Origin: a virus
Reading direction: 5' to 3' (one strand)
IMG/VR virus record: IMGVR_UViG_3300044490_000021
Coordinates: 1 to 37,376 of that record
DNA: 37,376 bases
A program made the position numbers and the translations under genes. Positions 171-32,500 of the stretch are shown in pieces. Within the stretch, counting starts at the first letter, position 1. Each line of letters begins with the position of its first letter. The notes beneath the pieces were generated by a model. It was not told where the DNA came from. It was given only the letters and a program-made list of their open reading frames with translations, and searched no databases.

Positions 171-176
171 GTAGTA

Positions 177-1659: not shown

Positions 1660-1674
1660 AACATAAGCAGTAGA

Positions 1675-1702: not shown

Positions 1703-1774
1703 CCGCATACACACCACACACACGCCCCACGCCCCACGTGGCGATTTCATTCTACAGAAAGGAGTATTCCAAAT

Positions 1775-4599: not shown

Positions 4600-4750
4600 G
4601 CCTAAGCAAAAGTACACACGTCCTTCTGTCTCTTACGAAACGCGCAAGTGCAGTTTGTGTAAGGAGCCTATTGCTTCCGGAGTTCCACATTATGTGGTTG
4701 AAGGAGAAGACGAAGAAACCAGATACTATCACAAGGAGTGCCTGCTATGA
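4586..4750 (+). CDS. Small treble-clef zinc protein, 54 aa
   Basis: ATG at 4586 opens 54 codons ending in TGA at 4748-4750. The peptide has C22-x2-C25 and H49-x2-C52 (CSLC and YHKEC), a treble-clef or PARP-finger-like zinc site. GAAAGGAGGA lies just upstream. It overlaps the SNF2 gene by 14 bases and the next gene by ATGA, so it sits in a tightly coupled operon. The basic N-terminus (KPKQKYTRP) would suit nucleic-acid binding. It resembles the 719 and 12714 zinc proteins only in fold type. The function is unknown. Confidence 0.7.
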   Translation: MWTSKPKQKYTRPSVSYETRKCSLCKEPIASGVPHYVVEGEDEETRYYHKECLL

Positions 4751-9782: not shown

Positions 9783-12211
9783 ACGAAGCGCTAGAGGATG
9801 AGTTGTACGAAGAGGCTACAGTAAAACCGAAACGCCCATATGCCCTTTGTCACGAATGCCCTCTGTCCGATCCTTCTCATACATACGTACCTACATACTT
9901 TCCGGCGACGGAGCCGGAGTATGTAGTTATCGGAGAAGGTCCAGGATATGAGGAAGCCAGAGTAGGCAAACCATTCGTTGGCGAATCAGGCCGCCTATTA
10001 CGTGCAGTATTCAAGATGAATAACAAGGATCTTGATAACTGCCTAGTCACTAACTCTACAGGCTGCCTTCCCAAGAATGCTACTAAAGCACAACTTGAAC
10101 GTGCTGTTTGGTGTTGCAAACCAGCACTTGATGCAGACTTGAGATTGGGTTCGCCACGAGCGCCGAGAATATTACTTGGCGCACACGCGCACAAGTCTGC
10201 GGGCATGGAAGATTACTACCACTGGGAGAGAAAAGGCGAACAAGATCCACCAAGGATGCGCGATTACATATCGCTTCCACATCCTGCATACATACTTCGT
10301 AGTCCTGGCATGGGAGTTCATTTCGTAAACGGAATGTACAAGGCATTGTCTGCTCCATCTTACGATGATGGTGATCCAGAAATGTCATTGCACCACGATG
10401 AAAAAAATCTTCCCCCTGTGCACAGCGAGGTTTTCGAGCGAGCACGGGACATCGTGATAGACTTAGAAACTACTGGCCTTTACTGGATTGAGGACATTCC
10501 ACTGTGGGTAGGTATTGGGTACAGAAATAGGATTGGTGAGATTGAAACCATAATCCTTGACGGCAAAGCCATGATGGAAAACGAAGCCATGATGGAATGG
10601 ATTGCAGATTTCGTGGACACCTACAAGGAGAAGATCGGTGGTTTCAATATCAAGTTCGATATGCTTTTCCTCTCCCAATACTATGAGGTAGGCCTCAATA
10701 GTTTCAGTTGGGATGCAATGCTGGAAGTGAATGCACTGAACGAATATTGGTTCCGTGACTTGAAGAACCTGGCTACTTACTTCTGTAATGCAGGATCTTA
10801 CGAAAAGGAACTATCGAGGTATGTGGAAAGGAAGTCGGATGGATACAAAGACGTTCCAGAGGATGTGCTTACTAGGTATCTATCACGTGACTTGAAGTAC
10901 ACACTTGAAGTACACGAAGCGCTAAGGAACTGGTTGGGAGAAAGGCATGAGCGTTTCAATCAGCAATTTCAAATTCCAGTATGTAGGGAATTGGCAGTAA
11001 TGGAGTTTGTTGGTGTGGCTGTTGACGTAGACAAACTCCGTGAACTCGAAGAAGCATTGATCAAGGAAGCAGAGAGCATCAAGGAAAGTATCCAAAGGCT
11101 ATCACAAGATATAATAAGTAATCCAAACAGTCCAAAGCAAGTGGCTGCCTACCTGTATGACACACTGCATGCGCCAGCATGTGCTATCTATGGATATGGT
11201 GTACGAAGCACAGCAGAGCCAGTCCTTGAAGCATTACCTGAAAGTTTCAAGAACATGCCAGTGATAAGGAAGATACTGGAATTCCGTGGGATCAGTAAGA
11301 TACTTTCATCCTACGTACTTAATGTATATCCTCGTGTCTACTGGGACTCGCTTAGTAGGTGTCACCGTGTTCATCCTGACTGGGATCAGACTGCTGCTAT
11401 TACAGGCAGAATGTCTGCCCACCATCCAGCCGTGCAAACTATTCCACGTGCTGGAGAAGAGGGAACATGGACATCTAAGATTCGTGCTTGCTACACAGCA
11501 GCACCAGATAATGTGCTATGTAGCGTGGACGGAAGCCAGTGGGAACTTCGTGTTGCAGCAGCAGAAAGTGGGGATGAGTTTCTACTTAATGCATATGCAA
11601 ACGGGAAGGATATACATGGTGAAGTTACATCAGCGATGTTCGGCCCTGGATGGAATAAGGAACAGAGAGCCAACACCAAGCGGTTTGTATTCTCTTGGAT
11701 ATACGGTGGGTCTGAGCAATCTAGTGCAGCTGTGTTTGAACTTCCGAGAGATACAATCCGCATATATGTCGACCGATTCAACCAGTCTTTGCATGGACTG
11801 GTTGAATACAGAAAGCGTGTGCACGAGGAAGGTAAAACGCGCGGCTACATCGAAACCAGACTAGGACGTCGCTGTCACTTCCTGCTTATAACTTCTGCTA
11901 ACGAAGACGCAGTACGGAAAGGAACATTAAACTATCCAATACAAGGTGCAGCAAGCGATCTAACTTGTCTTGCTCTTGTGGACTGCGCTCCAAAACTCAG
12001 AAGGATTGGAGCGCGAGTGGTGATGTTGGTACATGATAGCATTGTCTTTGAAGCACCGAAATCTCTAGCAGAGAAGGCATGCAAGATCGTTGCGGATTCC
12101 TTGGAGCGTTGCTCCGCCAAAGTCTATCCAGAACTTCCGTGGGTAGCAGAAGCAGAAGTTGGTCCTAACTGGGCAGAGTCGGAGAAGGTGAAATTGTGCG
12201 GGGACAAATAA
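9779..12211 (+). CDS. Uracil-DNA glycosylase fused to family A DNA polymerase
   Basis: The 810-residue protein joins two enzymes. Residues 20-195 are a family 4-like Fe-S uracil-DNA glycosylase: C24, C27, C96 and C112 for the cluster, GEGPGYEEA and GKPFVGESG at 52-71, and LPHPAYILR at 167-174. Residues 225-390 are a 3'-5' exonuclease with D228 and E230 (IDLETTGL), FNIKFD and YLSRD. The polymerase follows: D584 in motif A (DGSQWELR), K634 in motif B (NTKRFVFSWIYGG), and HDS with D753 in motif C, where HDE is more usual. The GTG start follows AAAGGAGAGG and overlaps the primase stop. Motif copy 5 lies at 207-215, in the linker between glycosylase and exonuclease. The fusion would couple uracil removal to synthesis; this is inference. 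Confidence 0.88.
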   Translation: MNEALEDELYEEATVKPKRPYALCHECPLSDPSHTYVPTYFPATEPEYVVIGEGPGYEEARVGKPFVGESGRLLRAVFKMNNKDLDNCLVTNSTGCLPKNATKAQLERAVWCCKPALDADLRLGSPRAPRILLGAHAHKSAGMEDYYHWERKGEQDPPRMRDYISLPHPAYILRSPGMGVHFVNGMYKALSAPSYDDGDPEMSLHHDEKNLPPVHSEVFERARDIVIDLETTGLYWIEDIPLWVGIGYRNRIGEIETIILDGKAMMENEAMMEWIADFVDTYKEKIGGFNIKFDMLFLSQYYEVGLNSFSWDAMLEVNALNEYWFRDLKNLATYFCNAGSYEKELSRYVERKSDGYKDVPEDVLTRYLSRDLKYTLEVHEALRNWLGERHERFNQQFQIPVCRELAVMEFVGVAVDVDKLRELEEALIKEAESIKESIQRLSQDIISNPNSPKQVAAYLYDTLHAPACAIYGYGVRSTAEPVLEALPESFKNMPVIRKILEFRGISKILSSYVLNVYPRVYWDSLSRCHRVHPDWDQTAAITGRMSAHHPAVQTIPRAGEEGTWTSKIRACYTAAPDNVLCSVDGSQWELRVAAAESGDEFLLNAYANGKDIHGEVTSAMFGPGWNKEQRANTKRFVFSWIYGGSEQSSAAVFELPRDTIRIYVDRFNQSLHGLVEYRKRVHEEGKTRGYIETRLGRRCHFLLITSANEDAVRKGTLNYPIQGAASDLTCLALVDCAPKLRRIGARVVMLVHDSIVFEAPKSLAEKACKIVADSLERCSAKVYPELPWVAEAEVGPNWAESEKVKLCGDK
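10401..10423 (-). repeat. Dispersed motif copy 5 (C-form on + strand)
   Basis: Seven A, TCTT, then CCCCCTGTGCAC. It is read as KNLPPVH in the linker between the glycosylase and exonuclease domains of the polymerase. Confidence 0.8.
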
Positions 12212-15774: not shown

Positions 15775-16432
15775 TGCCCATGACCTCCTTTACTAGATTT
15801 TGTAGTTGCCCCATGATGACAATGATGTCACCAATAGCAGTGTATACCTGCTGTAGTTCCTCACCCTCCGGTGGCTCCGGTGGCGGTGGAAAATCCGGTG
15901 GTGGTGTAGGTGGTTCAGGTTGCTCCGGTGGCGGTGTAGGTGGTACCACACCAGGTTCTAGTAATTGAAATGCTACATAGTAGGAATGATGGCCAATCGT
16001 ATTTCCAGTTCCTTCATCTGGATGATACGTGTGCATTCCAGATACTATGTCGCTAACTGTATCTTTTACTAGAACGTGAACGACCTGCCCCCCAAACATT
16101 GCCAGGTTTCCGCCCGCCTCATACAACGGCTTGTCTAGTATTACAGATGTTGGTGCTGGTTCTGTTTTTGTTCTCCCCTTCCAGTCCCACGTAATTCCAT
16201 AGTTTCCTCGAAGTTGTTTTCCATCCTTATCTACAAGATCGATGTATACGTTGTGCTTGCCCATGTTATCCTGAGGCGCCAAGTGCAGCACGCCTAGGCA
16301 CAGGGCGAATTTTTTTCCAGGCTGGGGATTTACTTCCGCAATGGCCACGTCATATTTCAGTGCTTCGTTCTTGCGTCCACCCTCTTTGATCCATTTGTCT
16401 ATCCAGTGTTGGCGTTCATTCTGTCCGAACAA
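15587..16432 (-). CDS. Virion or envelope protein with proline-rich linker, 281 aa
   Basis: Residues 1-165 form a domain I do not recognise, followed by a Pro/Glu-rich linker at about 168-196 (PPTPPPEQPEPPTPPP), then a helix (AIGDIIVIMGQLQNLVKEV) and a Ser/Thr-rich tail. The linker points to a multi-domain structural or surface protein. The start is TTG at 16432, supported by AAAGGAGG six bases away; no ATG fits. The Ser/Thr-rich tail, from about residue 219, overlaps the 15478 gene in another frame, so the true end may differ. Copy 8 of the dispersed motif encodes residues 40-45 (KKFALC). Confidence 0.65.
   Translation of the reverse strand: MFGQNERQHWIDKWIKEGGRKNEALKYDVAIAEVNPQPGKKFALCLGVLHLAPQDNMGKHNVYIDLVDKDGKQLRGNYGITWDWKGRTKTEPAPTSVILDKPLYEAGGNLAMFGGQVVHVLVKDTVSDIVSGMHTYHPDEGTGNTIGHHSYYVAFQLLEPGVVPPTPPPEQPEPPTPPPDFPPPPEPPEGEELQQVYTAIGDIIVIMGQLQNLVKEVMGNATASHISAVAGRAETFRPEDSSPTAGDTDTVYNSNPTSAATEPWTGKYSIGELNSGNPTGN
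16298..16316 (+). repeat. Dispersed motif copy 8 (G-form on + strand)
   Basis: GCACAGGGCG, AA, then seven T, inside the - strand 15587 gene, so the coding strand carries the C-form (read as KKFALC). Confidence 0.8.
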
Positions 16433-16865
16433 AGACTACCTCCTTTCCTAAAGTGTGTAGTATTTCTCTCCACGACAAACCTTCCTCGGCCAACGACAGT
16501 ATCTCTTCCTGCGTCTGTCTGTTATACTGTGCGTGTTGACAGTTAGGATCATCGCCTTTGATGATAGTACCGATACTCCAACGTATCGCCGCGTCAGTGC
16601 GGCTATGACGCTTCGACGGGACATACGCCTGGTCTCTGCGACCTATACTGTAGATATGAAACTCACTGTCCCGTGGGTGCTGCAATCTACAGTATGCGTA
16701 GGTACGGCAAAAAACGCCCTGTGCGATCAGCGCGTCCATGTCTGCATCGTAAGACATTTCTGCTGGAAGAACTCCCATCAAGTATCTTTCTACTGACATA
16801 TTGATGTCTCTTCCATCGGACAGTCTGACCGTTATCAGGATCGTAACTGCCAAGAAAGCGTTCAT
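16416..16865 (-). CDS. SpoIID/LytB-like domain protein
   Basis: Residues 14-60 match the SpoIID core: VRLSDG, SVERYLMGVLPAEMS with E36 at the position of the catalytic Glu, then ALIAQGVFCRTYA, the counterpart of the usual ALKAQAVAARTYA. SpoIID proteins are peptidoglycan lytic transglycosylases acting on denuded glycan. At 149 residues it is shorter than bacterial members. The last 45 residues, with a QTQEEILSLAEEGLSWREIL helix, may be a separate binding part. It overlaps the 16862 gene by ATGA and has no ribosome binding site, so it is probably coupled. Possible roles are host-wall degradation at entry or at lysis. Motif copy 9 falls in the conserved AQ helix. Confidence 0.65.
   Translation of the reverse strand: MNAFLAVTILITVRLSDGRDINMSVERYLMGVLPAEMSYDADMDALIAQGVFCRTYAYCRLQHPRDSEFHIYSIGRRDQAYVPSKRHSRTDAAIRWSIGTIIKGDDPNCQHAQYNRQTQEEILSLAEEGLSWREILHTLGKEVVFVRTE
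16709..16724 (-). repeat. Dispersed motif copy 9 (C-form on + strand)
   Basis: Six A then CGCCCTGTGC. On the coding - strand it is GCACAGGGCG then six T, read as AQGVF within the conserved helix of the SpoIID-like domain. Confidence 0.8.
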
Positions 16866-17140: not shown

Positions 17141-20100
17141 CTATCCAGTAATCGTTTGCCAGAATGGCAAGTAATAGGCTGTAGTACCAGAGTAGAACTT
17201 AAGCCATCCAGTACTGTTTCTGGATGTAGATCCGCCCATCTTGACGGTGCCAGTACCAGTAGATATGGAAGATGTAGCATTCGTAAGTGTCACATAACTT
17301 GCGGTGCCGCCATCATCACCACCGACTCCTACACTACCAGATACCTTTAACTTAGGAGTTCCTGGTGCAACACCTATTCCAACCTTACCAGCAAAGTAAT
17401 TTCCCTGGTTGGATCCTTCCTGGTAAACGCCATAGTTGGCCGTTACAGGTGCGGTTCCGCTGTGCGCCTGGAGGAACAACTGATACAGGTTGGTGATCGT
17501 ACCGGTGCTGTTGTACGTTGAAATGTGTATGCCTTCCACGGTCGTTGAAACCGGAGTCTCTTTGTCGTCTGTATTGTAATGTCCAGCGCGGATTATCGCG
17601 CCAGCCAGGTTTGCCAGTGTACCGCTGTCGTCCACAGCAGCCCCGTTGGCATTTCTCCATGCTGAGATGTTTAAGGCATACATATATCCCGAGTTCGTTT
17701 TCGTAGCGGAAACCCGTTCGTATGCACTCATCGTCAGGCCACTACCATAGTAAGTTCCGGTTGTGGTAGTGTTGTGAACGCTCGAGCAACTCATGCCTCT
17801 TGTACTACTTTGATTTGTTGCTTCGTTATCGACGTTGAGAGGAATGTATGAAATTGGATCAGCGTTAATCCCAAGTGCACCGCTCACAATCTTCATAGAG
17901 TCGCCGGAGTCGAGATTGAGTTGGTTAGACCCACCATCAGAAAGAACAACATCACCACCAAGTGTGAGACTAGTTGCAGCGCTGAAGTTTCTGGAGCTGT
18001 CAATCGCGGATGTACCTGCGATTTGCAGGGAACCGGATACCAGGTTAAGGCTATCACCACTTGCAATGTCGAACCTGTTAGCTGCACCACGAGAAAGTAC
18101 TGCATCACCACCTAGTGTCAAGCTGGTTGCCCCGCTGAAGTTTCTGCTGCTGTCAATCGCAGATGTTCCTGCTATCTGTAACGCGCCAGATACTATGTTG
18201 AGGCTATCGCCGGTTGCAAGATCAAGTCTGTTAGCAGCACCGCGGGAGATACTGACATCAGTGCTCAGTACTAAAGAACCTGAAAGATTAACGTTCGTTC
18301 CAGTTAGATCTCCGGTCATTGTGTCTCCAGATTTTTGAACGAAGTTATTAACAATGTTTCCCTGAACTGGAATGCTTAGATGATAAAGCACTGAGTCTTG
18401 GTAGATCTGAAGATCAGGAAATGGTGATGCTCCTGTTGTATTGGCATAGATCTCTAGCCACAAACGTTTGCCTGCAGGAACAGTGACTGCCGTTGCTGCA
18501 TGCATGTGAACTTCGTATTCTGTCTTTGTAGTAGTTAGAATGTCTGTTTCGTCTGACTCCGAAGAAATAACAGTCTTGTTACTAGTCCCATCACTATCGA
18601 CATAGTACAGTCTGAAGGAAAGTGTGGTTGGTTTCTTGCCAGAAGCTGTGACTCTTGCAGCAATGTGCAACTGAAGAATGGAACCTGCATTAATAGTAAA
18701 TGGGGTAGGCGTGTCTACAACTGAAGTTTTATAGCAAATAGCAATCGTGTCTTTTGGAGTAACGTCAACCGACTCCGTGCTTGAGGTTTCAGATTCAACC
18801 AGTGTCGAAGACATTATGTTGGTAGCATGTATATAGTAAGTAAGAAGTGATGGAACAGCATTCTGTAGATAGGACAGTGTAACAAAGTGGGTTAAGTCTG
18901 TAGGATCTGAACCAGAAACTACACCTTCGAAAGCACCAGGTCCGTTAACTTTCAGCAAGGTACTTGTAACTGATGGCTGTGTAGAGGGTGTGTATCCAAC
19001 ACTTGCTCCAGAGAAGAAGTGCGCTCCTGAACCTGAGAATCGTGCAGTGTGTTCATAGGATGCAGAGCCATCAGGACTGACGAAGAAGTTAATACGAGGC
19101 GTGTATCCTGCACCAGCGCCTAGAGAGTTAACCTCAATGATGGCATCAAAGTTGCTGTTGTTACGAAGAGCGGCAATGGTTACGCTAGAGCCTGCTTCTG
19201 TTCCTATGTTGGATGATGGAGCCTTGGCACGTAGAGACGCTGTATGCTCTATAGTTGCATCCGGACTGTAGATACTCGCGTATGTGTATCCAACTACGTT
19301 AGAACTAACGTCCAACCATCTGATGTAGTTGGTGCTCGCATTACCTTGTTTCAAAAAGATACCTGTCGAATCCAGTTTGACGTCTCCACCACCAGCATAT
19401 AGTTTTCCGTCTGTGTCGAAGTATACTTGTTTGGTTCCTGATCCCCACATTTCAAGCAAGCCAACGCCTGTTGAAGTATCGCGATATATCTTTAGGGCTG
19501 TGTCTGGTGACCCAAAGGTTCCAGTGCCTTGAAAGAAACCACCACCTAAACCAATAGTCAGTACGCCTTCGATGATTCCGGACGAAGCATAGATTGTTCC
19601 TCTTGCAGTAATGTTCTGGAATTCGGCTGATCCATCGCGCGTGATCTTCCATCCGCTAGTATTAGCAACATAGTCTGAAGATTGTATTTGTGTCGCAAGC
19701 ATGCCACTAGTAATGCGTACATCACCTGCTCCTTGTACTCCAGTCATTGCTGCTTCAAGATAGGAAAGACGTTGACTAGCGTTCGCACTGGAAACCTGAT
19801 TGCTCAGATTCTCTATTCGTCTAAGCAGATCTTCATATTCTGCCACTGTCATACCTCCGTACTTCGGTGCTAGATACGGAACACTGGATGGAAGTGGTGG
19901 AATGAACTGTGATACTCCACCAAATCTTCCTGATGATGTACCCCACAGGTGATCAATGTTTCTGTCCATCCAGTATTCAAACGCTGCCTCATCTAGTAGT
20001 GTCTCCGGCCATAGGTAGAATACCGTATAGCCAAGATTCTCAAGCAACGCTTGTTGAGTCTCGTCACGAGTTTCAATCTCCAATGATATGTTGTGCCAGT

Positions 20101-20491
20101 AGGACTGCACCTGCACAACTACCATTGGAAGAAGGAATATGAAGTCTGCAACAAGGCCACCAAATTCACTGCGTCCTCCTAACTCGGATGCTTGAAAATC
20201 AAAGTCAACACCTGGCATGAGTCCGCGTTGTATCAGTGCCTTGTAGAATATTCGTTCATACAGCGAGCCACTAATTCCTGGTTGGGCACGCTGTTCCAGG
20301 TACTCCTCTGTGTCGTACTTCGTTCCGCGACTACGTGCGTGCATCCTAGGTCTTTCTGCACGCAAAGCCTCTCTAGTTACAGCACCAAGTTTCAAGCGCC
20401 GTATCTGGCTATGCACTTTCTTCGGATAGCCACGCACGTAGCGCGGATGCCGCAGGCCGAGCACAGGGCGATTTTTTTCAGTTCCCGCCAT
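17141..20491 (-). CDS. Tail fibre-like protein with N-terminal restriction-nuclease-like domain
   Basis: This 1,116-residue protein starts with a basic tail, then a domain (about 73-180) with the layout of VSR/DUF559-type PD-(D/E)XK folds: VDFDFQ, LVADFIFL with D116, VVVQVQSYWH (127-133) and ENLGYTVFYLWPETL. The usual Glu of the ExQ pair is Q127, so catalysis is doubtful. A coiled coil follows (214-250), then beta-rich fibre sequence beginning with GWKITRDGSAEFQNI, common in phage tail proteins. A 51-residue tandem repeat lies toward the C-terminal third. AGGAGGG precedes the ATG. Motif copy 10 encodes residues 5-10. It probably forms host-binding fibres; the role of the nuclease-like head is unknown. 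Confidence 0.78.
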   Translation of the reverse strand: MAGTEKNRPVLGLRHPRYVRGYPKKVHSQIRRLKLGAVTREALRAERPRMHARSRGTKYDTEEYLEQRAQPGISGSLYERIFYKALIQRGLMPGVDFDFQASELGGRSEFGGLVADFIFLLPMVVVQVQSYWHNISLEIETRDETQQALLENLGYTVFYLWPETLLDEAAFEYWMDRNIDHLWGTSSGRFGGVSQFIPPLPSSVPYLAPKYGGMTVAEYEDLLRRIENLSNQVSSANASQRLSYLEAAMTGVQGAGDVRITSGMLATQIQSSDYVANTSGWKITRDGSAEFQNITARGTIYASSGIIEGVLTIGLGGGFFQGTGTFGSPDTALKIYRDTSTGVGLLEMWGSGTKQVYFDTDGKLYAGGGDVKLDSTGIFLKQGNASTNYIRWLDVSSNVVGYTYASIYSPDATIEHTASLRAKAPSSNIGTEAGSSVTIAALRNNSNFDAIIEVNSLGAGAGYTPRINFFVSPDGSASYEHTARFSGSGAHFFSGASVGYTPSTQPSVTSTLLKVNGPGAFEGVVSGSDPTDLTHFVTLSYLQNAVPSLLTYYIHATNIMSSTLVESETSSTESVDVTPKDTIAICYKTSVVDTPTPFTINAGSILQLHIAARVTASGKKPTTLSFRLYYVDSDGTSNKTVISSESDETDILTTTKTEYEVHMHAATAVTVPAGKRLWLEIYANTTGASPFPDLQIYQDSVLYHLSIPVQGNIVNNFVQKSGDTMTGDLTGTNVNLSGSLVLSTDVSISRGAANRLDLATGDSLNIVSGALQIAGTSAIDSSRNFSGATSLTLGGDAVLSRGAANRFDIASGDSLNLVSGSLQIAGTSAIDSSRNFSAATSLTLGGDVVLSDGGSNQLNLDSGDSMKIVSGALGINADPISYIPLNVDNEATNQSSTRGMSCSSVHNTTTTGTYYGSGLTMSAYERVSATKTNSGYMYALNISAWRNANGAAVDDSGTLANLAGAIIRAGHYNTDDKETPVSTTVEGIHISTYNSTGTITNLYQLFLQAHSGTAPVTANYGVYQEGSNQGNYFAGKVGIGVAPGTPKLKVSGSVGVGGDDGGTASYVTLTNATSSISTGTGTVKMGGSTSRNSTGWLKFYSGTTAYYLPFWQTITG
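17870..18259 (-). repeat. 153-bp tandem repeat inside the tail-fibre gene
   Basis: Units 17954-18106 and 18107-18259 are close copies (51 codons, containing AGTSAIDSSRNFS and RGAANR), with a more diverged partial unit at about 17870-17953. All keep the reading frame. Such repeats lengthen trimeric fibre shafts and can change number by recombination. Confidence 0.8.
20461..20478 (+). repeat. Dispersed motif copy 10 (G-form on + strand)
   Basis: GCACAGGGCG, A, then seven T, eleven bases inside the start of the - strand tail-fibre gene, read as EKNRPVL in the flexible N-terminus. Confidence 0.8.
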
Positions 20492-20503
20492 TAAGCCCTC
20501 CTG

Positions 20504-22519
20504 CTACACGTAAGCGATCGTACACCTTGCACGAGCACTGGCATATCTATTTCCATCCTCACTGTACTGTCTCACAATGAAACGTAGTGATGTTAGATAT
20601 GCCGAACTGGATTCGCCAAAGATGTTCGTGAATGTGATTGGAGCCACACTTGCGCGCGCTGCCTTGAGTGATGTACGCATTTCGGATGCTGTCGATCCCA
20701 GTCTTTCGCCATCGGGTGTTGCTAGTTCATCCTCTACAATCACTTCGAATGATACACCATAAAGCACACTTGGTCTGGCCATGCACTTCAGAATGTGAGC
20801 CTTCAGGATTGGAGAGACAGTTCCTGAACTGGTCTGGAGATCGAAGACAAGTTGGATCCGTTTACCAGTTACGCTTGAGAAGTTCAGTGTCTTTGTGCTA
20901 GAAGTAAACGTTCCTAGACTGGTAAGTGTAGTATTATCGTCCGTCCTATAGGAGCAAGCAATGCTAGTGTTGGTAGGAAACTCAGCATCTACAGTAACCG
21001 ATGCGAACGATTTATCCACGCGCATGAGGCCGGCGTCAATGTAACTGGTGTATAGCCTGTGGTTTCCAGTTGTAGGATAACTAGCATATGTTAACTCGGA
21101 GTACGGCTGGAGTGTGACATAGTTAAGATAAGATACTTTAGTTCCCGCATTGTTCCTGTATGCGTAGTAAAGTCTATCATTCTGTGGATCAATCCACATG
21201 TTCATGTTTCCATAGATAGCACTAGCATCAGAAACGTCTGCTACCTTGTGCCAACCTACAGCATCAGTCTTAAGTATTACTCCATGTGCCGCTGTTTCCG
21301 TAGTCTCCAGCGAGTTAACTTCATTACTACGTGCAATAACGTACATGAACTTTCCTCTTGGAACCAGCGCACTGAAATCGCCATAGGTCTTGTAAGGCCA
21401 GTGTTCATCCCACCTAGGTGGTGTAACTTCTTGCAATCCAGACTTATACTTGTAAAGCGTATTACGAATGCTGAACCACAAGAAGCCATTCCAAACACAG
21501 GCAGCCTTGAAGTTGTCTGTGTGTGCTTCATTGCTGAAGTCCAAGATGTGGTAGGCTACGTTGTCGTCTCCAATAGCCCACGCACCATCTTCTCGCATTA
21601 CCCACAGTTGGTTACTGAATGGGACCATGTTGTTGATTAGGATATCACCAGGTCCAACATGGATTGCATACAAGTCTCCACTCTGTTGTCCTTCAGCGTC
21701 CGAACCGTCAGACTCAGACCAGTAATGCAACCACGGAACGTTGTACTCACAGCCCCACATGTAACCACCATAGGACGCCAACTTGTAGAAGTTCTGTGGT
21801 GGGATAACTGCGCTACCAGCATCGTCATACACAAGGAACTTACTGGTGTTGTCTGGCTGTGTACCCCATCCAGCAACCTGAATGGTATCATCTGTATTTC
21901 CTGTGATTGCCGTGCTTGTTCCTGAACCCGTGCCTTCGTAGATATATATGTTTCCACCAACAAAGATGTTAGTAGTCCATCCATGATCTATAGTTGCAGT
22001 ACATGATGTTGCGTTTGCTGTTGTTACTTGTCCAATATCACACACCTTCATGGTGCCACTAGTAGCAATGAAGAAATAAGTGCCATTGCTTAGCAAGTCT
22101 CTAACGTCAATGCTAGAAAGCAATGCTGTTAGCGATGATGTACCAGCACGATATAGAGCATTGTTGGTTCCAAAAAGACGATGGCCTCTGTGATTGCATG
22201 ATGACTGGTATACGTAGGTGTTTACGTTTGCAATGTTTACTGGCAACGTGTACAGGCTAGCAAAGCCCTGACTTGTGTCAACAAGATGTCCTGTGTTTGC
22301 ATACATAGCAGATTCGACGAATCGCTCGTTGCCATAGCCGTGTCCGTAATCTTCTTGACCGAGATCAAGATACAGACCTAATTCACTACGATGTGGAGTA
22401 CCAGTAACTGCACGTGGTGCCCAATCCACGATATCTACTTCACTGTAGGTATCGGGATCAACAATGTAGCGATAAAGAACACTACTGACTGTCATTCCTA
22501 CATGATAACCAACAGACAT
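20504..22519 (-). CDS. Large beta-rich virion (tail/tube) protein, 671 aa
   Basis: The protein is beta-rich with many Trp, Tyr and Gly, e.g. PPRWDEHWPYKTYGDFSALV, suggestive of a propeller or tail-tube fold. At 21820-22032 it contains a module (NIYIYEGTGSGTS ... NTSKFLVYD) also present in the preceding 22529 gene. GGAGGATAAC precedes the ATG. Gene order (connector-like gene, then this gene, then fibre) resembles tail-tube positions in short-tailed phages, so tubular protein or tail hub is a reasonable guess. Direct homology was not recognisable by eye. Confidence 0.65.
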   Translation of the reverse strand: MSVGYHVGMTVSSVLYRYIVDPDTYSEVDIVDWAPRAVTGTPHRSELGLYLDLGQEDYGHGYGNERFVESAMYANTGHLVDTSQGFASLYTLPVNIANVNTYVYQSSCNHRGHRLFGTNNALYRAGTSSLTALLSSIDVRDLLSNGTYFFIATSGTMKVCDIGQVTTANATSCTATIDHGWTTNIFVGGNIYIYEGTGSGTSTAITGNTDDTIQVAGWGTQPDNTSKFLVYDDAGSAVIPPQNFYKLASYGGYMWGCEYNVPWLHYWSESDGSDAEGQQSGDLYAIHVGPGDILINNMVPFSNQLWVMREDGAWAIGDDNVAYHILDFSNEAHTDNFKAACVWNGFLWFSIRNTLYKYKSGLQEVTPPRWDEHWPYKTYGDFSALVPRGKFMYVIARSNEVNSLETTETAAHGVILKTDAVGWHKVADVSDASAIYGNMNMWIDPQNDRLYYAYRNNAGTKVSYLNYVTLQPYSELTYASYPTTGNHRLYTSYIDAGLMRVDKSFASVTVDAEFPTNTSIACSYRTDDNTTLTSLGTFTSSTKTLNFSSVTGKRIQLVFDLQTSSGTVSPILKAHILKCMARPSVLYGVSFEVIVEDELATPDGERLGSTASEMRTSLKAARASVAPITFTNIFGESSSAYLTSLRFIVRQYSEDGNRYASARARCTIAYV

Positions 22520-22528
22520 GTTATCCTC

Positions 22529-23623
22529 CTAGAATGGCCAGTCAAGTGGACGTATGGATGCGCCAACAAAACCGTTGTGCAACGATCCAGAGAAATGACG
22601 GAATGCACCCTTCTGTGCATATGCCTGTGCAGCCTCACCAGTTGCACGCTGCATAGCAGCCCAGTTATCCAACTCAGAACTAGGTGCGTGTGTAAGTTTA
22701 GACATGAAGAGTCTGCTCAATGCTGACAGTTCCAGGAACTCTCGTGGGCAAACCACTTCGGCGGTTTCACTGCTGTAAGGTGTGAACTCACTCTCGTACA
22801 GGATCTTCAACTTGTAGCCTTCAACACCAGAACGAGAACTAGAAAGGTACAGGATTGTTGGTTCGTTGATGTTGTCTAGTTCCCAGTCAGTGATAAGACT
22901 AAAATGTGAAGTAGCATCTGCCGTATCTGTAAGTCGATATTTAGAAGTAGTATCCAGAGCAGAAGAAAAAGCAACACTGACGCTGAGAGTGCTAGCGCTA
23001 GCAACACTTGCCACAGTTCGTATATCCCCAACGCTCGTCCCTTCATAGATGCGAACCTCCTTTCCTACATCGTCACTTGAGAAAGCAGCGCTGCTGTTTA
23101 TGACCTGTACGTTTGTTCCCGCAGATGTGACCTGTCCAATTACGCTATTGACTCCCTGCTCCATCAGAACCTGAGCAATCCACTTTGGAGTTGGACTCAG
23201 TGAAGTTAGCGGATACGAAACCCCAACACCAGAACGCAGCACAAGATGTCCTGCTGTCTGCACGAAGAAGTATGGCCATGCATCCCGAAGAGCCTGATTG
23301 ATTGCATCGTTCACTTCGTGTGCAGTAAAGGATGACCAGATCTCATACGCGGCTCCTGATGCTGTTGCAGTGAATGGCTCAACCACAGTTAGTGTATCTG
23401 ACGATGCTGTGAAGTCTGAAATGATACGGTTCTCGTCTGCCGTAGGTAGATACAGAAACTGACCATTCCAGAAATCATCTGCCTGTGTCAGTTTAGCAGT
23501 GTCGATCAACGTCGTTGTTGATCCACCTGTAGCCGTACCTGCAACTGCACCATACCTCATAAACCAGGGCTGTCTTGTTCTGACGCCAATAGCACGTCTT
23601 ATCGTAGGACGTGTTACGCCCAT
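22529..23623 (-). CDS. Head-tail connector/neck-like protein with two beta modules, 364 aa
   Basis: The N-terminal part contains a module often seen in phage neck/tube proteins (GGSTTTLIDT, DDFWNGQFLYL, then TVVEPFTATASGAAYEIW). A helical part follows (AHEVNDAINQALRDAWPYFF) and then a second beta module (QVTSAGTNVQV ... RIYEGTSVGD ... DTTSKYRLTD). The C-terminal third is helical with Arg and Leu. TAAGGAGG lies upstream of the ATG. Between the coiled-coil gene and the large beta protein, this is most likely a connector or neck protein; this is inference from order and composition. Confidence 0.6.
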   Translation of the reverse strand: MGVTRPTIRRAIGVRTRQPWFMRYGAVAGTATGGSTTTLIDTAKLTQADDFWNGQFLYLPTADENRIISDFTASSDTLTVVEPFTATASGAAYEIWSSFTAHEVNDAINQALRDAWPYFFVQTAGHLVLRSGVGVSYPLTSLSPTPKWIAQVLMEQGVNSVIGQVTSAGTNVQVINSSAAFSSDDVGKEVRIYEGTSVGDIRTVASVASASTLSVSVAFSSALDTTSKYRLTDTADATSHFSLITDWELDNINEPTILYLSSSRSGVEGYKLKILYESEFTPYSSETAEVVCPREFLELSALSRLFMSKLTHAPSSELDNWAAMQRATGEAAQAYAQKGAFRHFSGSLHNGFVGASIRPLDWPF

Positions 23624-23633
23624 AGTTTCCTCC

Positions 23634-24320
23634 TTACATCACACCGACGTCCTCGCCCCAATTCAAGGAAGTTCGAGGTTTTGCTTTAGAACCAGGCACT
23701 AGTGCAATATCAGTCTCTGGTTGCTGCTTGAATCTCCAAGCCTCAAGATCTCCATAAGAAACAGAGCCTTTGATTTGCTGGTCATACATAGCAGCGCGCT
23801 GTACAGACTGGATATGCTCTTCCCAAGCAGGAATAAACAACTCAGATACTTCGCTTCTTCCTGTTGGTACAACGCACCTAACTCCATTCATTTGAAGTAG
23901 CACGGGATCACCTGAATTGAAAACGTCAACTTTCTTACTATGTCTAATCGCTTCTTGAAATCTAGTAGCCTTCATACGCATCTGCTCGATTGCTTCTTGC
24001 TGTAGTTTTTGAATGATTGCTTGTCGCTCTTCTGGGGAAACAGGTTGCTGCTCCCGTATTTTTTGCAGGGCTTCTTGTGCAGCCTGAAGTCCCTGCTCAG
24101 CCTCTCGCTTTTCCCTAATTGCCTGAGTAAGCAGCGCGTGCATATCGCCAATTGCTTGACTCAACTGATTGTACTGCATGGCTTCAATACGCTGCACTGC
24201 TTCTAGTTGCTCTAGTCTGTTCACCAAAGCATTAAGTGAGGGATCGGCGGTTCCCTCAGAATCAGAAGTTACCGCCGATCCTCTTACGCTTTGCTCTGGC
24301 GCATAAGGTTTAAGCGCCAT
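23634..24320 (-). CDS. Coiled-coil structural protein, 228 aa
   Basis: Residues about 28-125 are a long coiled coil rich in Gln, Glu and Ala (LVNRLEQLEAVQRIEAMQYN, IREKREAEQGLQAAQEAL). A shorter globular part follows (VLLQMNGVRCVVPTGRSEV) and then a basic tail. AAGGAG is present before the ATG. It lies between a small head protein and the connector-like gene. It could be a neck, head-completion or internal protein; I do not recognise the family. Confidence 0.65.
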   Translation of the reverse strand: MALKPYAPEQSVRGSAVTSDSEGTADPSLNALVNRLEQLEAVQRIEAMQYNQLSQAIGDMHALLTQAIREKREAEQGLQAAQEALQKIREQQPVSPEERQAIIQKLQQEAIEQMRMKATRFQEAIRHSKKVDVFNSGDPVLLQMNGVRCVVPTGRSEVSELFIPAWEEHIQSVQRAAMYDQQIKGSVSYGDLEAWRFKQQPETDIALVPGSKAKPRTSLNWGEDVGVM

Positions 24321-24330
24321 AGCAATCTCC

Positions 24331-24744
24331 TTACGACAGGTCGGTGGGTACTGCCCACACAGTTACGGTAAGATTAGAACTGTCAGAGCCGCCAGGAATA
24401 GCATCAATGTTGAGAGCAAGTGTTCCACCGGCTTCCAGTTTGGTTTTGGCAAGTGATGCAGCAGCGATTGATTGATACAGAACAGAACTGTCATGCGCGA
24501 TACGGCCAACTCCGGACGCGACTGTCCACAAGTCACCACTGGTAGTCGTTCCACCAGTAGGAGCAACATACGCAAGGACGAAGTCAGTTTGCCCAGATGT
24601 AGTACCATTCACGCCGATGTTGGCATGTACACGATCAATTGTGCAGTTAAATGGAAGAGTCTGAAGATCGAAACCGTCAGCAACAGTCAGAGTGTTAGGA
24701 TTCCGAAGAGTGATCGGAATCGCTACGTTAGGATAGAGCGGCAT
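24331..24744 (-). CDS. Small beta-rich virion protein, possible head decoration, 137 aa
   Basis: The protein is rich in Thr, Val, Gly and Ala with alternating hydrophobic strands (TIDRVHANIGVNGTTSGQTD, LTVTVWAVPTDL) and no Cys except one. Size, composition and place directly after the major capsid gene fit a capsid decoration or head-fibre base protein. GGAGG lies about eight bases before the ATG. The terminator at 24777-24826 separates it from the capsid gene, so it may be made at a lower level. The function is inferred from context only. Confidence 0.55.
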   Translation of the reverse strand: MPLYPNVAIPITLRNPNTLTVADGFDLQTLPFNCTIDRVHANIGVNGTTSGQTDFVLAYVAPTGGTTTSGDLWTVASGVGRIAHDSSVLYQSIAAASLAKTKLEAGGTLALNIDAIPGGSDSSNLTVTVWAVPTDLS

Positions 24745-24776
24745 TTTTAGCCTCCGTTAACTAAAGCGCGGGTCCG

Positions 24777-24826
24777 AAAAAAATTCGCCCTGTGCCCCCG
24801 CGCCGAAGCACAGGGCGATTTTTTTT
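24777..24826. terminator. Bidirectional terminator made of motif copies 11 and 12
   Basis: Seven A, TT, CGCCCTGTGC (24777-24795) and GCACAGGGCG, A, eight T (24808-24826) form an inverted repeat with a 12-base loop. The 11-bp GC core is perfect, with one T-T mismatch before the A/T runs. It lies just after the stop of the major capsid gene in the - direction, where strong terminators are common in phages. The T-run on either strand makes it work both ways. Confidence 0.88.
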
Positions 24827-24848
24827 CCCACGAAAGGAGTGTGAGAAA

Positions 24849-25880
24849 TTATGAACCGCCGAGAGCAGTAGCGTGTCGGATTACAACCATGAAGTTCTGC
24901 TGCAGAATCTTCGTAACGAAAGTTGTATACCACGCGATACTGGCTCTCTGGTCCAACGGGTCTGCAGAACCAGCAGAACCAAAGTCCTTCTGGATCAAGC
25001 GCAGAGGTCGGGTCTTGAGCATTGTAGTATTGCTGTTAGTCATGCTATTAGTACTTGGAGCCTGCATACCTGATGGCATGTACTGAGCCAAACCGCCAAT
25101 ACCAAACGCACCCTTACCGATTACAACCGAGTAGAAAACGTCGACGGTGCCGCCGCTACCAACATCGGGAAGCTCATAAGCATTCGGCGAGACAAACAAC
25201 TCACAACCGACTGCCTCACCCATGTAACCAGTAAAGTACGAATTGGATTTGCCACGCTCCTGGCTGTACTTCAAGATGGTCTGGAAAGTACTGTCATTAT
25301 ACAAATCGTATTCGGTATACGGGTGTATAATGACAGAGAACTTTCCACCATCCAGCGGACGAGCCTTATTAACCTTGAGCGTAGCAACGGCCTCAAGCAG
25401 TTCAAGAGCAGTAAGTTTCATGGCGCTAGTGATGTCGCTGTTTGCAGCAGCAGTAGAAGCGTATTGAATTGTGGTGCCGGCAATGATGACGTTACGAACG
25501 AGTTGGTCAAGACTATCACCAGCCTGCTCACCAAGAGCATCCGCAGCCTCAACCGCTACACGATCAATGCCCATCATTGCAAGTTTCTTGGTATAGCGAA
25601 TGTAAGCGCCATACTCATCTACGGTAGCAGTCAGGTTAGACATGCTCATGTCCATTGATGCAGGAGTGCTGCCCTCAGTCAATGCCGTAGTAACAGCAGT
25701 GAAAGAGTTAAGAATACGCCAGTCAATGGTAGCACCAGCATGCTCGGGCAGAGCAGTAATAGGACTTACACCGCGCTGACCAAAAGCCAGGTGCAGAAAG
25801 TTAGGAGTTGCGCGATCCAGCAATTGCATTTCATAGAACGTTCGCTGCTGTGTAGTAAGAACACCAAAGGTGGAAGTCAT
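24849..25880 (-). CDS. Major capsid protein, N4-gp56 family-like
   Basis: The 343-residue protein has the N4-gp56-type capsid plan: an N-terminal FYEMQLLDRATPNFLHLAFG, an ITALPEHAGATIDWR strand, ALTEGSTPAS, VDEYGAYIRYTKKLAM, and ALGEQAGDSLDQLVRNVI. These are in the order and spacing of that HK97-fold family. It assembles the icosahedral shell. CATGGAGGC precedes the ATG. It follows a scaffold-like gene and is followed by a strong terminator, as expected for the most abundant virion protein. Confidence 0.87.
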   Translation of the reverse strand: MTSTFGVLTTQQRTFYEMQLLDRATPNFLHLAFGQRGVSPITALPEHAGATIDWRILNSFTAVTTALTEGSTPASMDMSMSNLTATVDEYGAYIRYTKKLAMMGIDRVAVEAADALGEQAGDSLDQLVRNVIIAGTTIQYASTAAANSDITSAMKLTALELLEAVATLKVNKARPLDGGKFSVIIHPYTEYDLYNDSTFQTILKYSQERGKSNSYFTGYMGEAVGCELFVSPNAYELPDVGSGGTVDVFYSVVIGKGAFGIGGLAQYMPSGMQAPSTNSMTNSNTTMLKTRPLRLIQKDFGSAGSADPLDQRASIAWYTTFVTKILQQNFMVVIRHATALGGS

Positions 25881-25903
25881 CTTTAGCCTCCATGACTAGA
25901 ACT

Positions 25904-26551
25904 TTACCCGACAGATGGGAAGTCCTCCAATCTGACGTCGCCAAGTCTGATTCGATCCATTAATTCTGCACGTTCTTGCGCTGTCATATTCCAGATACTC
26001 TTCTGTGCTCCCTGCGTTCCCTGCCCCCCGCCAGTTCCAACCTTTGGCGCATTGGTTCCAGGTTTAGCAGTTCCCTTCAGTGCAGCAACTTGCTTCCTTA
26101 GCGTACTGATTTCTGACTGCATGGTAGTCAGTACGCTGTGCTGCCAGTCAGCAGGATCATTACCAACTATCTTATCTGCAGGAACAAACTGGCTGTAGTA
26201 TGAATACAGTTCATTAGCGTATCTTGTCTGTGCCAACTGTTGCTCTCGCACCTGAAGATCTCTAGCACGCTTATCCAACTCGTAACGTGCTTTCTCTTCG
26301 TCATTCATGCTGGATGTTTCGTACTTCTCCAGCATCTGACGCATTTCTTCGTTGGCACGCGCTTGATCACTGTACGCATTCTGCAACCAATTCATTCGCT
26401 GCTGATACTGGTCCTGCTGCTGTTGCTGCTGCGTTTGAGCCTGAGCCTGAGTATCTGGAGTGCTATCTACATTCTGTGCAGAATCCTGTGCAGGATCCGT
26501 AACTTGGGTGGAGGGTTCACCCTCTACACCACCGTTAACTAGATCAGGCAT
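25904..26551 (-). CDS. Scaffolding-like protein, 215 aa
   Basis: The protein is highly charged and helical. The first 50 residues are Asp/Glu/Gln-rich and disordered-looking, with a long Gln run (QAQAQTQQQQQQDQYQQ). Coiled helices follow (ANEEMRQMLEKYETSS, RDLQVREQQLAQTRYAN), then a short C-terminal domain (SIWNMTAQERAELMDRIRLG). Composition, size and position directly before the major capsid gene match phage scaffolding proteins, which shape the procapsid and are then lost. GGGAGG precedes the ATG. There is no protease motif. Confidence 0.78.
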   Translation of the reverse strand: MPDLVNGGVEGEPSTQVTDPAQDSAQNVDSTPDTQAQAQTQQQQQQDQYQQRMNWLQNAYSDQARANEEMRQMLEKYETSSMNDEEKARYELDKRARDLQVREQQLAQTRYANELYSYYSQFVPADKIVGNDPADWQHSVLTTMQSEISTLRKQVAALKGTAKPGTNAPKVGTGGGQGTQGAQKSIWNMTAQERAELMDRIRLGDVRLEDFPSVG

Positions 26552-26562
26552 TGTTACCTCCC

Positions 26563-29500
26563 TTACTTTTCTAGTGCTGACATTTGTGCCAGCGTTGGAT
26601 TAGTCAGCGGGTTCACAGAGACTTTAGAAGATGAACCCGCGGCCTCACGATGTTTGGCAAGTGCTTTCTTTGCCGTTTCAGTAGCCTTATCTTTCCATCC
26701 CCAATAGGCTATCAAGTACGCACCTACAGTCGTTGTCGTATTAGGAATTTGCTGTTTCATTAATGCACGTTGGGCATTCTTATCTTTATTTAGATCCCAC
26801 CATTTATCGTTATACGCATGAACACCAGGCCATCTAACTTCCGCAGCCTGGTGAACGATAGTAGTAGCTGCTCGATCAACATCTTCTGCATCAGCGTAGT
26901 ACTGTAGCAAGTCTGGATCGGAAATCATTTCTCTATTTAACCAATCCCAATATCCAAACAAGCCGGAGTTGGGTTGGTTAGGATTCTGTGTGCTGATAGC
27001 ATATGCAATTGCAGCATCGTGTCCCTTTGTTTGTTCTGTCTCAAAGAATTTATCTTGCCACTTCTGTGCGCTTGGCCATTCCGTTTCGGAACGTTTATAC
27101 AGAGCGGCTCTTTTTTCTTTTGCTCGCTTGATACCTTGAGCGATTTCTCCGGTAGGAGATGCTATCAATTCGGCAGCGTCCATCACAGCGTATGTCAACG
27201 CTTGATAATCAGCAGGCTGCCATCCTGAAAGATCTCCAGCAGACTGATAGAACTTCTCTCGCATTACTGACGTGAATCCTAGTTTATCAAGCAAGGCTGC
27301 ACCTGATTTACCAGGTGGTACACGATTAAGTACATTCCACGCCAGCGATGATATACGTTGCTGCTCGGTATCATAGGCAAGCCATGCAGTAGATAGCCAC
27401 GGATACTTTCCAAGAATCTGTGTTGCTGCTTCTTTAGGCAACATCGTCTTCTTTAAGTCTTGATATTCACGTCCTTGTTTTGCAAGTTCACTCTCCCAGC
27501 CTGCTCGTGGTGTTATTCGCAAGCCTAGAAACATCGAAGCCAGTGCGGGCAATCGTTGAGCCGACAAGGCCGACACTATTGCGTCTGCAAATGTTGGGCC
27601 ACGTTGTGTAGCCGCAGCATATATTGCGTCGTCTGGGCTCAGAGAACCAAGCATCTGTGATGCTGCTAGTCTGCGTGTTGCACTTGCTACATTCCATTTA
27701 GTCCCTCCAACAAAAGGTTGCACGTTTCCTGTTCGTGGATCACGTGTCCACATCCAGGGCTCTACAACTTTCCCAGTTAGTGCAGCAAAGGAACGTGTTA
27801 CTGGTGACAGGTATCCAGGTGTTCTTGCTCCTTCTCTGTCTCCTTGAAGAGCGCGTTCAGCCGCGTAAGCAAACATAAGCAGCGGATGTACTGCTGGTCC
27901 ATATCTGCCTATTGCTTGAATGGCTTTTCCAAACGCGCTTCTTTCTCGATCAGGATCCTCGAAGGATTCAAAGATATTTTGTACTGGAATAAAAGTAGAT
28001 TCAAAATCCCAAAGAAGTTTTCCGTCAAAACCAGGTACTCCAGAAATCGCAATGTGGTTCTTTGCCCAGTCTGGAATATCAGGATCGTCTTTGTTCATTT
28101 GCTCTATTCCACGCCGCATACGCAGGTAGGCGTTAACAGCCCCAGGCGAACGCGCTAAACTCTGTGCCCAATTAGGAACCGCGCGTGTGTACCAGTACAC
28201 CCACGGGAACGCTAACTGCAAGAGAATATCTGGCGTCCGGCGCATCTGGTAATCCAATAGCGCATGGTCACGAACCCGCTTTGCGTATTTAGCCGCTGCA
28301 GCGTGGACATCGACGTGTCGTGATTGTAGTCTCTTAGTAAAGGTATTCAGCACATTATCCAGTGGTTCTCCAGCCTTACCTGCTTGTTCAAGAGATCTTG
28401 TTAGTGTAGTGGCTGGCATATCTTCTACTTCTTTAATCACACGCTCGAGAAGGTTAGTTGCTCTTACAGCCATATCAGTGTTTACGCTTACAGCACTAGG
28501 TGATGGTCCAGATGCCAGACCAGATTGCACAGCGCTAACAGCATTCTGCGCAACAACTGCTTCTGGCTTGCCTGATGCCATGACCTTTTGTGCGTGGGCT
28601 CTTACATATTCACGATACTCATTGGCTGCAACTACCTTACCTTCCCATTCCGGTTTGTTTACACAAGCAAATGGAACAAGGTCTATGCTGCCATTTTTCT
28701 TTCGGACTGGATACATGGCATAAGGAATATCGCCTATCTTAAATTCCTTCATAGCCTGTACTGGCTTCGCGTAAACACGTGGTACAACTTCGTCAGGTTT
28801 AACGGCATCAGGTTCAAGAATGTCGCCGGCTCGTGTCTCCAGCTTTCCTGGCGATTCGATGCTGGCTTTTACACCACCAGCGTCTCGGAGTTCCATTAGA
28901 ACCTTGTCACGAGCGGCGCGATTCTTTTTCCATGTATCCGTCACGTCACCGATATCGTAAGTTAGCAGATTATCGAATACGCTTCGCACATCGTCAGGGA
29001 ACTTTTCCATAGGGCCACGTCGATTGAATAGCGCACGATAAGCATCCGAGATCCAACGCTTCATCTTCTCGAATACGCCCAACAATCCCTTGGTTGGAGC
29101 AAATCCTTCAAAGATATACATCTCAAATGCTTTCGCGAACTTCTCTTGATCGTTTACGTCCCATAGATTTCGTCTTCGTCCTACCCACTTTTCGATAATT
29201 ATCAGATCATCATTGCGTAGCATGGGTACTAGCATGTGTCCGGCTTCGTGCATAAGCGTAGAAGCATTGGCGTTCTCGAAACCTTTTAGTACACCAAGAC
29301 CAGTCAGCGGATTAAGCGACCAAGAGCCAAAAACTTCCTTGCCTACTCTTTGAAAGGATGCTCTTTCCGCCATCTTTGCTATGCTTTCCAGGCCGCTGAG
29401 GTGCACAGGGGGTTTCTTTTCAAACCGAACATCTGAGATAAAACGCTCGTACCAAAGACGCCAATCCTCGCCATATGTAGAAGCCCACGATTTAGCAATA

Positions 29501-32500
29501 GCATCGAAGATAGTCATTACGCCATCGCGCTGCTCAGGTGTAAGATTGAACACGTTCATTGCTCGATGAGCGAAATCCTCGCGCTTCAATCCACCAATGT
29601 ACTTAGCTACTCGAATACTCTCTGTTTCGTTCTTGTTGATAATGTGGGTAACTTCCGACCAGTTCTTAACCTTCTGTAGTGGTACGCGCTTGTTATCTTT
29701 CAGTACAGCATATGAATCAATGGTAGCCATACGATTAATTTCACCCATGTGTGCAGGGTAATCTGAAATAAGATCCTTACTCTTGAAGGTTGCAATAGTT
29801 ACATCATCTGTCATTCCCCATCTGTTGATAGCCTGAACAACATCAAAGGAAGGAAGTTTACTCTCTACATGGAACTGACCATTCGATGTTTTAGTAATGA
29901 GAATAGCATCCTTGGGCTTAGTGTTTAGTTGTTTTGCTAGATCATTAGCATCTAAGTCTCCACCGATGTGAGCGATTGCATCCGCAGATTCATCGGCTGT
30001 TATCATCACGGACGCAGCATCATCTGGATGTGAAGCACCAATGAAGTGCCAGATCCTATCTTTGTCATTGCTTGAAACGATGAGAGTTGCCGCACCACCA
30101 ACATTAGTTTCGAATCCTGTTGGTTGAGTGTGCTGCATATCGTAGAGCATGACAGAAGCATCTGGATCCACTCCAGCCTCGCGCATACGTGCAAATGTTT
30201 GCTTGATGCGCCCATCTGGAACATGCACTTCAATAGTGCCGTCTTCCAACTTTCGTATGATAGCGCTACGTCCGTTTGTAGAAGCAATGATTTCTGAGAC
30301 TTCCTTAAGTTCAGACTTCTGCAATATTCCAGTATCCAAGTTGAGTGTTGTCACCCAAGGCTCTGGCTTTTGAATATCATCACCGAGTTCAGTGACGGTA
30401 ATCTTTGGCCGATCCATTCTGGGCGTTGTCGATTTGGGTTTGGATTTTGTTGGTGTTGGTGTTGGTGTTGGTGTTGGTGTTGGTGTTGGTGTTGGTGTAG
30501 GTGCCGCCTTCTTAGGACGTGGTCCAATCTGTGCCATAACATTTTCTTTGAGATCTTCCCTTGCAGCAGCTTCAAGTGCTTCATCAGAAACTGGTGGAGT
30601 AATTACTGTAGGAGCCACTTCTGGTGCAGGAGGTACTTCTGGTGCTTTTGGTCTAGTCTTAATAGCCTGAACTTCCATGCGTACCTTCTCGTCGACAAAG
30701 TCTTCGAGGTTTGTTACTCTATCACCCTGCATTCTAACAGGCGTTTTCTCTGGAACACCAGCACGTAGAAGTTTGGCTGCTTCTTCTAGTCTACCTTCTG
30801 CTCTAGATGCTTCATCAATGAATTGGTCAGGAGCAAATTCAAGAATTACCTTCTTGGTTCCATCCTGATTCCAGTAGATATGACCAACTATGGTATTTTC
30901 TGCGGCTCTGATATTGGCAGAGCGAGAGAAAACGGTGCCAATGCTAGAAGTGTAGTGCGTAATGTATGCTAAGTGATCAGGAACCTCAGCATCAAGAGCA
31001 CCACTCCAGTCAGAAATGGCAGCTGAACCATCAGGATTTAACCAATTTTGCACCATATTGAGTTCGTCAGGAACCAGACCTTGGCCACCACCGCTAGGTA
31101 GGTTAATGTCTCCAAATAGTTCTTCTTGCCTGTAGTAGGAACCCTGGAATACTCCATTCCCCAGATCACCTAAAGTAGACGTGCGCTCAATCATAGGAAT
31201 GTTTGCACTTTGTGTATATGTTCTCCAGATAACTGGTGTATTGCGATCAATCTTTCTACCAGCCAACTCAGTAAATAACTCCATTGTCTCTGTTCTATCC
31301 ATTACGCCTGTTACCATGATTGGTTTATCCCCACGTTTTGATACTGTAACTACTCCAGACTTGCCTTTAGGATATGGATTATCCAATGGAACTCTTCGTA
31401 GCCGCATAGAACCAGTGCCAGCTGATGATTGTAGATCCCAAGCCTCAGAACCAAAATCCTTAACCGTTGTATTACTACCAAGCATACTCCATCGACGATG
31501 TCGCAGAGAGTTGCTTCCAGCAACTTCCTCTCCAGCCAAGAATCCTGGAGTCAGTCTAGTTGTGCGCCCTCTCTTAAACAGACCATCATCAATAAGGATT
31601 ACTTGGTCTGGGGCCATTTTTAGTTCTGCTGCTACTTTCCTTATTCCAACGAATGAGGAAAGTTCATGTGTAGCCACTATGTATGTATCTCCAGATTTCA
31701 CTAGAACCAGCGATGCTTTATTTGGAATTACAGTACCAGGAGCAACCTTGATCACTTCTCCTGTATCTTTAGTTACTATGTAGCGCTCCTGTTCACCAAT
31801 TGGTTTGGACATGTAAGCCTTGACATCAGGATTGGACTCCAGATCCAGTACGTTGCTGTATCTAATATCCGAAGCAACTTGTTCTGCCTTACCAGAAACC
31901 TCACCAGTTGGTGTTTGCACAATGACTGGTGTATCAGGAGGAAGTTGCTCCAAAGCCTTGACTGTTGTTTCTGTAACCTGACCATCTGGAACAATAGTTC
32001 CATCAGGAAGTTTCAACCCTTCCATAACCTCAGCATCTTTAGGAAGTACTTCAACTGCTTTTCTTCCTGCTTCTGGTTTAGTAGTGGCTGCCTTTCTGCT
32101 TTTGACATCAATAGCAACACGCTGAACTTCTGTAGATACAGGAAGCGTAGTAGCCTCTGCAATATCTACAGGCGCATCACCTGCTCCAGCAAGATCGGCC
32201 AGAATAAATGGTGTTGTTTCTTTGGTGTCCAAGTTGGTTACAAGAACTGGAGTCTGCTTATTAAAACCGTAGTCCAGTAACTTGTCTGCTATAGGCTTAT
32301 TGGAAAGGGGATTAGCGTTGTTAGTACGTATAACAAAATTTCCTTTCTGTCGGAACAATCCAAGAGACTTCTTCATGTCGGCAGTAAGAAGGACTGCCTT
32401 GGTAAGATCCAGTTCGTCATACGGAAGATAGAAATCAACCTCTCTGTTTGCAAGATTAAGAACAGGTTGTGCCGGAGTTACATCTACAGCAACTACTGGC

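Follow-up and report, generated by a model that had tools for sequence, protein, structure and literature searches.

The window, by which we mean the whole stretch of DNA that was analysed, is a virus record from IMG/VR and is 37,376 bases long. The gene under study in it is a tail-fibre gene that carries the module at its 5' end, and the features of this gene and of the gene upstream are collected in Table 1. A further record, 3300044489_000054, matches window positions 21887-37376 without a difference in the stretches that were compared and is 99.7% identical to positions 1-5492, so that both seem to be overlapping pieces of a single phage population with a self-closing map. Elsewhere in the window there are a DNA polymerase A ORF (9779-12211) with an N-terminal uracil-DNA-glycosylase domain (PF03167, residues 39-178), a 149-aa SpoIID-domain protein (16416-16865; PF08486, E 2.7e-12) encoded downstream of the fibre gene, and a 3588-aa ORF (26563-37329), with no match in Pfam, that lies upstream of the genes for the scaffold and the major capsid protein (MCP), a place that its relatives also have in the loci L050-L053.

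Table 1. Positions in the window of the fibre gene, its module, the active-site residues and the neighbouring upstream gene.
Feature	Positions	Strand	Basis
Putative nozzle (tail-tube) protein, 671 aa	20504..22519	-	homologue precedes module in every evaluable locus
Ribosome-binding site AGGAGGG of fibre gene	20496..20502	-	
Tail-fibre ORF, 1116 aa, module at N terminus	17141..20491	-	ORF list; PF09327 match inside
Basic N-terminal arm, conserved, residues 1-66, net charge +11	20294..20491	-	alignment of 30 rows; charge count; low AF2 confidence
Vsr/DUF559-type (EDxHD) core, residues 72-167	19991..20278	-	profiles, AF2, residue counts
E79 (Vsr E25), invariant 34/34	20255..20257	-	alignment
D116 (Vsr D51), invariant 34/34	20144..20146	-	alignment
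Q127, variable 'x' position (DUF559 has Glu, Vsr has no acid)	20111..20113	-	alignment
H133 (Vsr H69), invariant 34/34	20093..20095	-	alignment
D143 (Vsr D97), invariant 34/34	20063..20065	-	alignment
Strong internal Shine-Dalgarno GGAGG (19854-19858), 7 nt, in-frame GTG (19844-19846, residue 216)	19844..19858	-	
Heptad-like helical segment, residues 214-250, joint from module to fibre	19742..19852	-	read from sequence
PF09327 Phage_Tail_Tip segment, residues 257-305, E 1.6e-9	19577..19723	-	Pfam match

Homologues of the module were reached by pattern and profile searches. The search by tblastn with the window domain, L061 and L073 against 50,697 phage records gave no match, and an octamer search with the single window sequence gave no relatives. 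A DNA pattern built on the spacing WH...D...L..LG...W gave six real homologues in viral contigs, which were aligned as A1, and the profile search with A1 then gave 39 viral loci together with a single contig from a bacterial MAG. Five further contigs were reached via the upstream gene and all five also carry the module, while a final viral scan with divergent members added zero new contigs. The profile comparisons and the AlphaFold2 model are based on alignment A2, which has 30 distinct rows; conservation was counted over 96 core columns in 34 aligned homologues, with a median pairwise identity of 45% and a minimum of 26%. Among the viral contigs, searches for MCP and TerL led to no records but those of the same phage. 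A motif with Q or E before F/Y-W-H was also tried and rejected, as it returned mostly E-x-K-G-[FY]-W proteins, which we take to be T7 gp3-like, together with some chance matches and no relatives. At L076 (10001-10363) there are in-frame stops within the module match, which may reflect sequencing error, a frameshift or decay.

The first 200 residues of the window protein match Pfam DUF559 at residues 110-168 with 17.9 bits (E 0.003), which is below the Pfam gathering score of 20.6. Close homologues lie above this score (L073 38.3, L064 34.2, L068 28.4, L061 23.8 and L053 20.7 bits) and L050, with 20.2 bits, lies just below it; altogether DUF559 is matched by 26 of the 30 A2 members, the best E being 9.2e-10. 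When A2 was searched against PDB sequences with hmmsearch, 3hrl (DUF559, endonuclease-like) was matched with E 4.6e-6 and 3r3p (mobile intron protein, I-Bth0305I, EDxHD) with E 1.7e-5, while Vsr (1vsr) was matched weakly, with E about 0.7; 1VSR and 3R3P, the latter being I-Bth0305I, have been named as the two comparison structures (PMC11879112). The hhalign comparison of A2 gave 97.6% with a bacterial DUF559 alignment and 94.6% with a Vsr alignment.

The structure prediction, proposed as a check in the first-pass annotation of this DNA, is consistent with these matches. With A2, AlphaFold2 gives a helix at residues 77-88, strands at 97-99, 117-119 and 124-128, a helix at 137-152 and a strand at 156-160, which is the alpha-beta-beta-beta-alpha-beta order of the PD-(D/E)XK core. 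The block-mean pLDDT is above 90 over most of residues 61-180, with 61 at residues 101-110, 85 at 111-120 and 79 at 131-140; on the single sequence, without the alignment, the pLDDT is 38. Judged by profile and by predicted secondary structure, residues of about 72-167 of the fibre ORF are a Vsr/DUF559-type PD-(D/E)XK domain. The VSR/DUF559 fold that the first-pass annotation had seen at the head of the fibre is thus borne out by the profiles, by the predicted order of strands and helices and by synteny, and the peptides that it quoted (LVADFIFL, QVQSYWH and GYTVFYLW) are all present, with residues 73-180 mapping where it had placed them. This extent holds for the core but the module is larger, as the N-terminal arm, for which the model suggests a probably extended conformation, belongs to it as well. 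In a tree made from few columns with a quick method, all 34 members of the tail family form one clade (98 SH-aLRT) apart from DUF559 and Vsr.

Nine of the 96 core columns are invariant among the 34 homologues, five of them glycines and the other four E79, D116, H133 and D143. The active site of Vsr consists of E25, D51, H64, H69 and D97 (PMC12907096), and the hypergeometric chance of invariance at four of these five named sites is 1.8e-4, a guide value only because kinship is ignored. The same quartet of E, D, H and D is present in the filtered comparison sets in 18 of 18 DUF559 and 14 of 14 Vsr proteins. At residue 129, the site of Vsr H64, the window has Gln and the 34 homologues have Q22 M4 D4 L2 A1 E1, with Gln found here also in one bacterial Vsr of the comparison set; at residue 127 the counts are Q18, R11, N3, E1 and S1. 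On the strand that reads I-E-x-D-G in DUF559 the window thus has Q127 and Q129, neither Glu nor Asp. The replacement of the usual Glu by Gln, noticed before, is real, but taking it as a hint of lost function does not agree with the invariance of the quartet, and since Vsr also lacks an acid at this position of the strand, Gln127 need not by itself mean that the domain is inactive. The survey for relatives that retain the Glu gave one, L073 (9848-10363), which is the sole member of the 34 to keep the DUF559-like Glu and Asp (IIEVDGLTWH) and the nearest tree neighbour of which, L064, has Gln.

The upstream neighbour is labelled a putative nozzle protein from its gene position only. In all of the 43 loci that could be evaluated, which include near-copies and are not 43 independent lineages, its homologue lies immediately upstream of the module; outside this number are L087, which is cut off, and L089, where there is no upstream match. 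By alignment, the distance between the two genes is at most 90 bases in 39 of the 43 loci, the larger gaps being 151 bases in L066, 268 in L088, 451 in L052 and 661 in L072. The small ORF that intervenes in L072 (9156-9800) encodes 215 aa with a cysteine-rich, zinc-finger-like N terminus. Among the records reached through the nozzle gene, 24 of 25 carry the module, a count to be read with the caveat that the nozzle profile was built from module-bearing loci, and the exception is a contig that ends inside the nozzle gene. The same profile has no match in the PDB, stray matches only in Pfam, and no match to T7 gp12 or to the Pascal tail proteins.

The module is usually a separate gene of about 170-250 aa, typically near 230 aa. 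Another ORF mostly comes straight after it, often one with an initial helical segment and fibre motifs, and in these stand-alone relatives the separate fibre gene has a beginning similar to the helical segment of the window protein. Fusion to the fibre is found in the window, L050/L051, L054-L056/L140 and L068, with at least four changes between the fused and the separate form on the 34-member tree. A fusion to the nozzle gene in L063 was rated weak because the upstream ORF there looks frameshifted. The internal GGAGG/GTG at residue 216 sits at the fusion point and is the sole strong Shine-Dalgarno sequence with an in-frame start in the 1116 codons of the window gene. In L050 and L051 a GGAGG stands 4 nt from an ATG at residue 213, whereas the fusion boundary has only a weaker GGAG site in L054 and none in L068; the background of strong internal start sites is 14 in 65,298 codons, with the window, L050 and L051 genes counted. 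The start at residue 216 may give a short fibre without the module, or it may be the relic of a formerly separate gene. In L143 (6241-7938) the module ORF has an in-frame insert of about 280 aa with intein-like ends (FSFQ/CLAGHHRV ... GYGMHN/SS) and a LAGLIDADG-like stretch (YLAGFFDGEGSV), placed at the conserved FQ-SS-x-x-GGR motif.

The best reading of these sequence data is that the domain would be an obligate tail component at the joint of nozzle and fibre, and the best explanation that we can give is of a lineage-specific component of the tail module in an uncultured podovirus-like phage group. It is from the gene order, the fusions and the conserved residues that we infer its presence in the virion, its docking and its catalysis. 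In this arrangement the basic arm would dock on the nozzle or adaptor, the Vsr/DUF559-type core would form the base of the fibre, and the helix after the core would join or pair with the fibre coil. As the N-termini of T7-like fibres anchor between adaptor and nozzle (PMC10575957), the simplest reading by analogy is that the module would do the T7-like anchoring job on a different fold. Between the two roles offered earlier, a repurposed anchor or an effector delivered with the DNA, the invariant gene slot favours the virion anchor, the delivered effector being a possible role too; a check by profile for a known anchor fold, made with T7 gp17, gp11 and gp12 and with the Pascal tail proteins, was negative. 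Against the placement at the nozzle joint it counts that the upstream protein is called a nozzle because of its gene order and that its profile finds no counterpart in the PDB or in T7 gp12.

Besides acting as an adaptor, the domain would bind metal and cut or nick DNA that is met at the tail. These activities are most likely retained because the quartet is constant in a domain that otherwise diverges down to 26% identity; its constancy suggests that selection also acts on metal binding or catalysis, and the nuclease-fold tail domain is probably still catalytic. That residue 129, the H64/Asp strand residue, is mostly Gln speaks against this, as does FASTKD4, where a Vsr-like fold serves as a non-cutting adaptor (PMC11879112), though the His is lost there. 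Taking both parts together, an adaptor with retained chemistry at the nozzle-fibre joint is given an even chance of being the right description. It is more tentatively, and with rather less than an even chance, that we extend it to the whole short-tailed lineage, where an active Vsr-type nuclease would anchor the fibres and be obligate in adsorption and ejection, with the second start tuning the number of module-bearing chains.

If the nuclease fold was recruited purely as an inactive fibre-to-nozzle adaptor, with the quartet kept for a structural metal or a hydrogen-bond network, the invariant gene slot and the fibre fusions would be explained, and so would the degeneration of the Glu and Asp strand residues in most members, the adaptor use of FASTKD4 being a precedent. 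In that case, however, it would be expected that at least one of the four active-site residues is lost somewhere among 34 divergent sequences, whereas none is lost, and in the precedent itself the active-site His is replaced. A purely structural anchor is for these reasons a doubtful possibility, although a serious one. The module could also be an intracellular nuclease that acts in packaging, in recombination or on host DNA and is merely encoded in the tail operon, with incidental fibre fusions; most members are indeed separate genes, and the internal start in the fused genes could release a module-free fibre, but the repeated in-frame fusions to the fibre N terminus and the strict adjacency to the nozzle gene better fit a structural partner, and we regard this role as unlikely. 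A free-standing homing endonuclease inserted beside the nozzle gene seems very improbable. The known EDxHD enzymes are homing endonucleases of phages (PMC3943268), to which the family is akin, and the PADLOC homing-endonuclease model is matched by three members; however, the conserved arm, the fibre fusions and the single clade do not agree with such an insertion, the module is itself invaded by the intein-like insert in L143, and its presence in nearly all of the records reached through the nozzle gene is not sporadic.

The virus may thus carry at its tail either a nuclease that still works or a highly conserved anchor derived from one. If the fold serves as an anchor only, it would be a new solution to the attachment of fibres; if it is active, each virion of the lineage would have a DNA nuclease at its tail, which raises the question of which DNA is cut. 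In the limited set of full-text literature that was searched, a fibre base with a nuclease fold is not described.

Among known systems, DUF559 (PF04480; Caulobacter VsrA CCNA_02930, PDB 3hrl) is the best sequence match and has the same core order and the same E, D, H and D residues (PMC12907096). By contrast, its third strand has the Glu and the Asp in 18 of 18 proteins each, where the tail family has mostly Q/R and Q, and the tail family forms a separate clade with its basic arm and a GGR-x3-GG insertion. The Vsr mismatch endonuclease (PF03852) shares the quartet and the lack of an acid where DUF559 has its Glu, but its profile match is weaker, its stretch from the His to the last Asp is longer and its function is DNA repair. 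The EDxHD family of homing endonucleases (PMC3943268; PMC12350094), with I-Bth0305I (3r3p) as the profile match, is likewise phage-encoded; those are enzymes of mobile elements (PMC3943268), whereas the tail family keeps to a single slot among the tail genes. With the N-terminal anchor of T7-like fibres (PMC10575957) the module shares its position at the end of the fibre nearest to the virion, judged by its gene place beside the putative nozzle, but the T7-like fold is a jelly roll plus helix and the hhalign probability with T7 gp17 is 0.1%. Finally, FASTKD4 (PMC11879112) also uses a Vsr-like fold as a binding adaptor, yet it binds RNA in mitochondria and has Asn for the active-site His, while in the tail family the quartet is intact.
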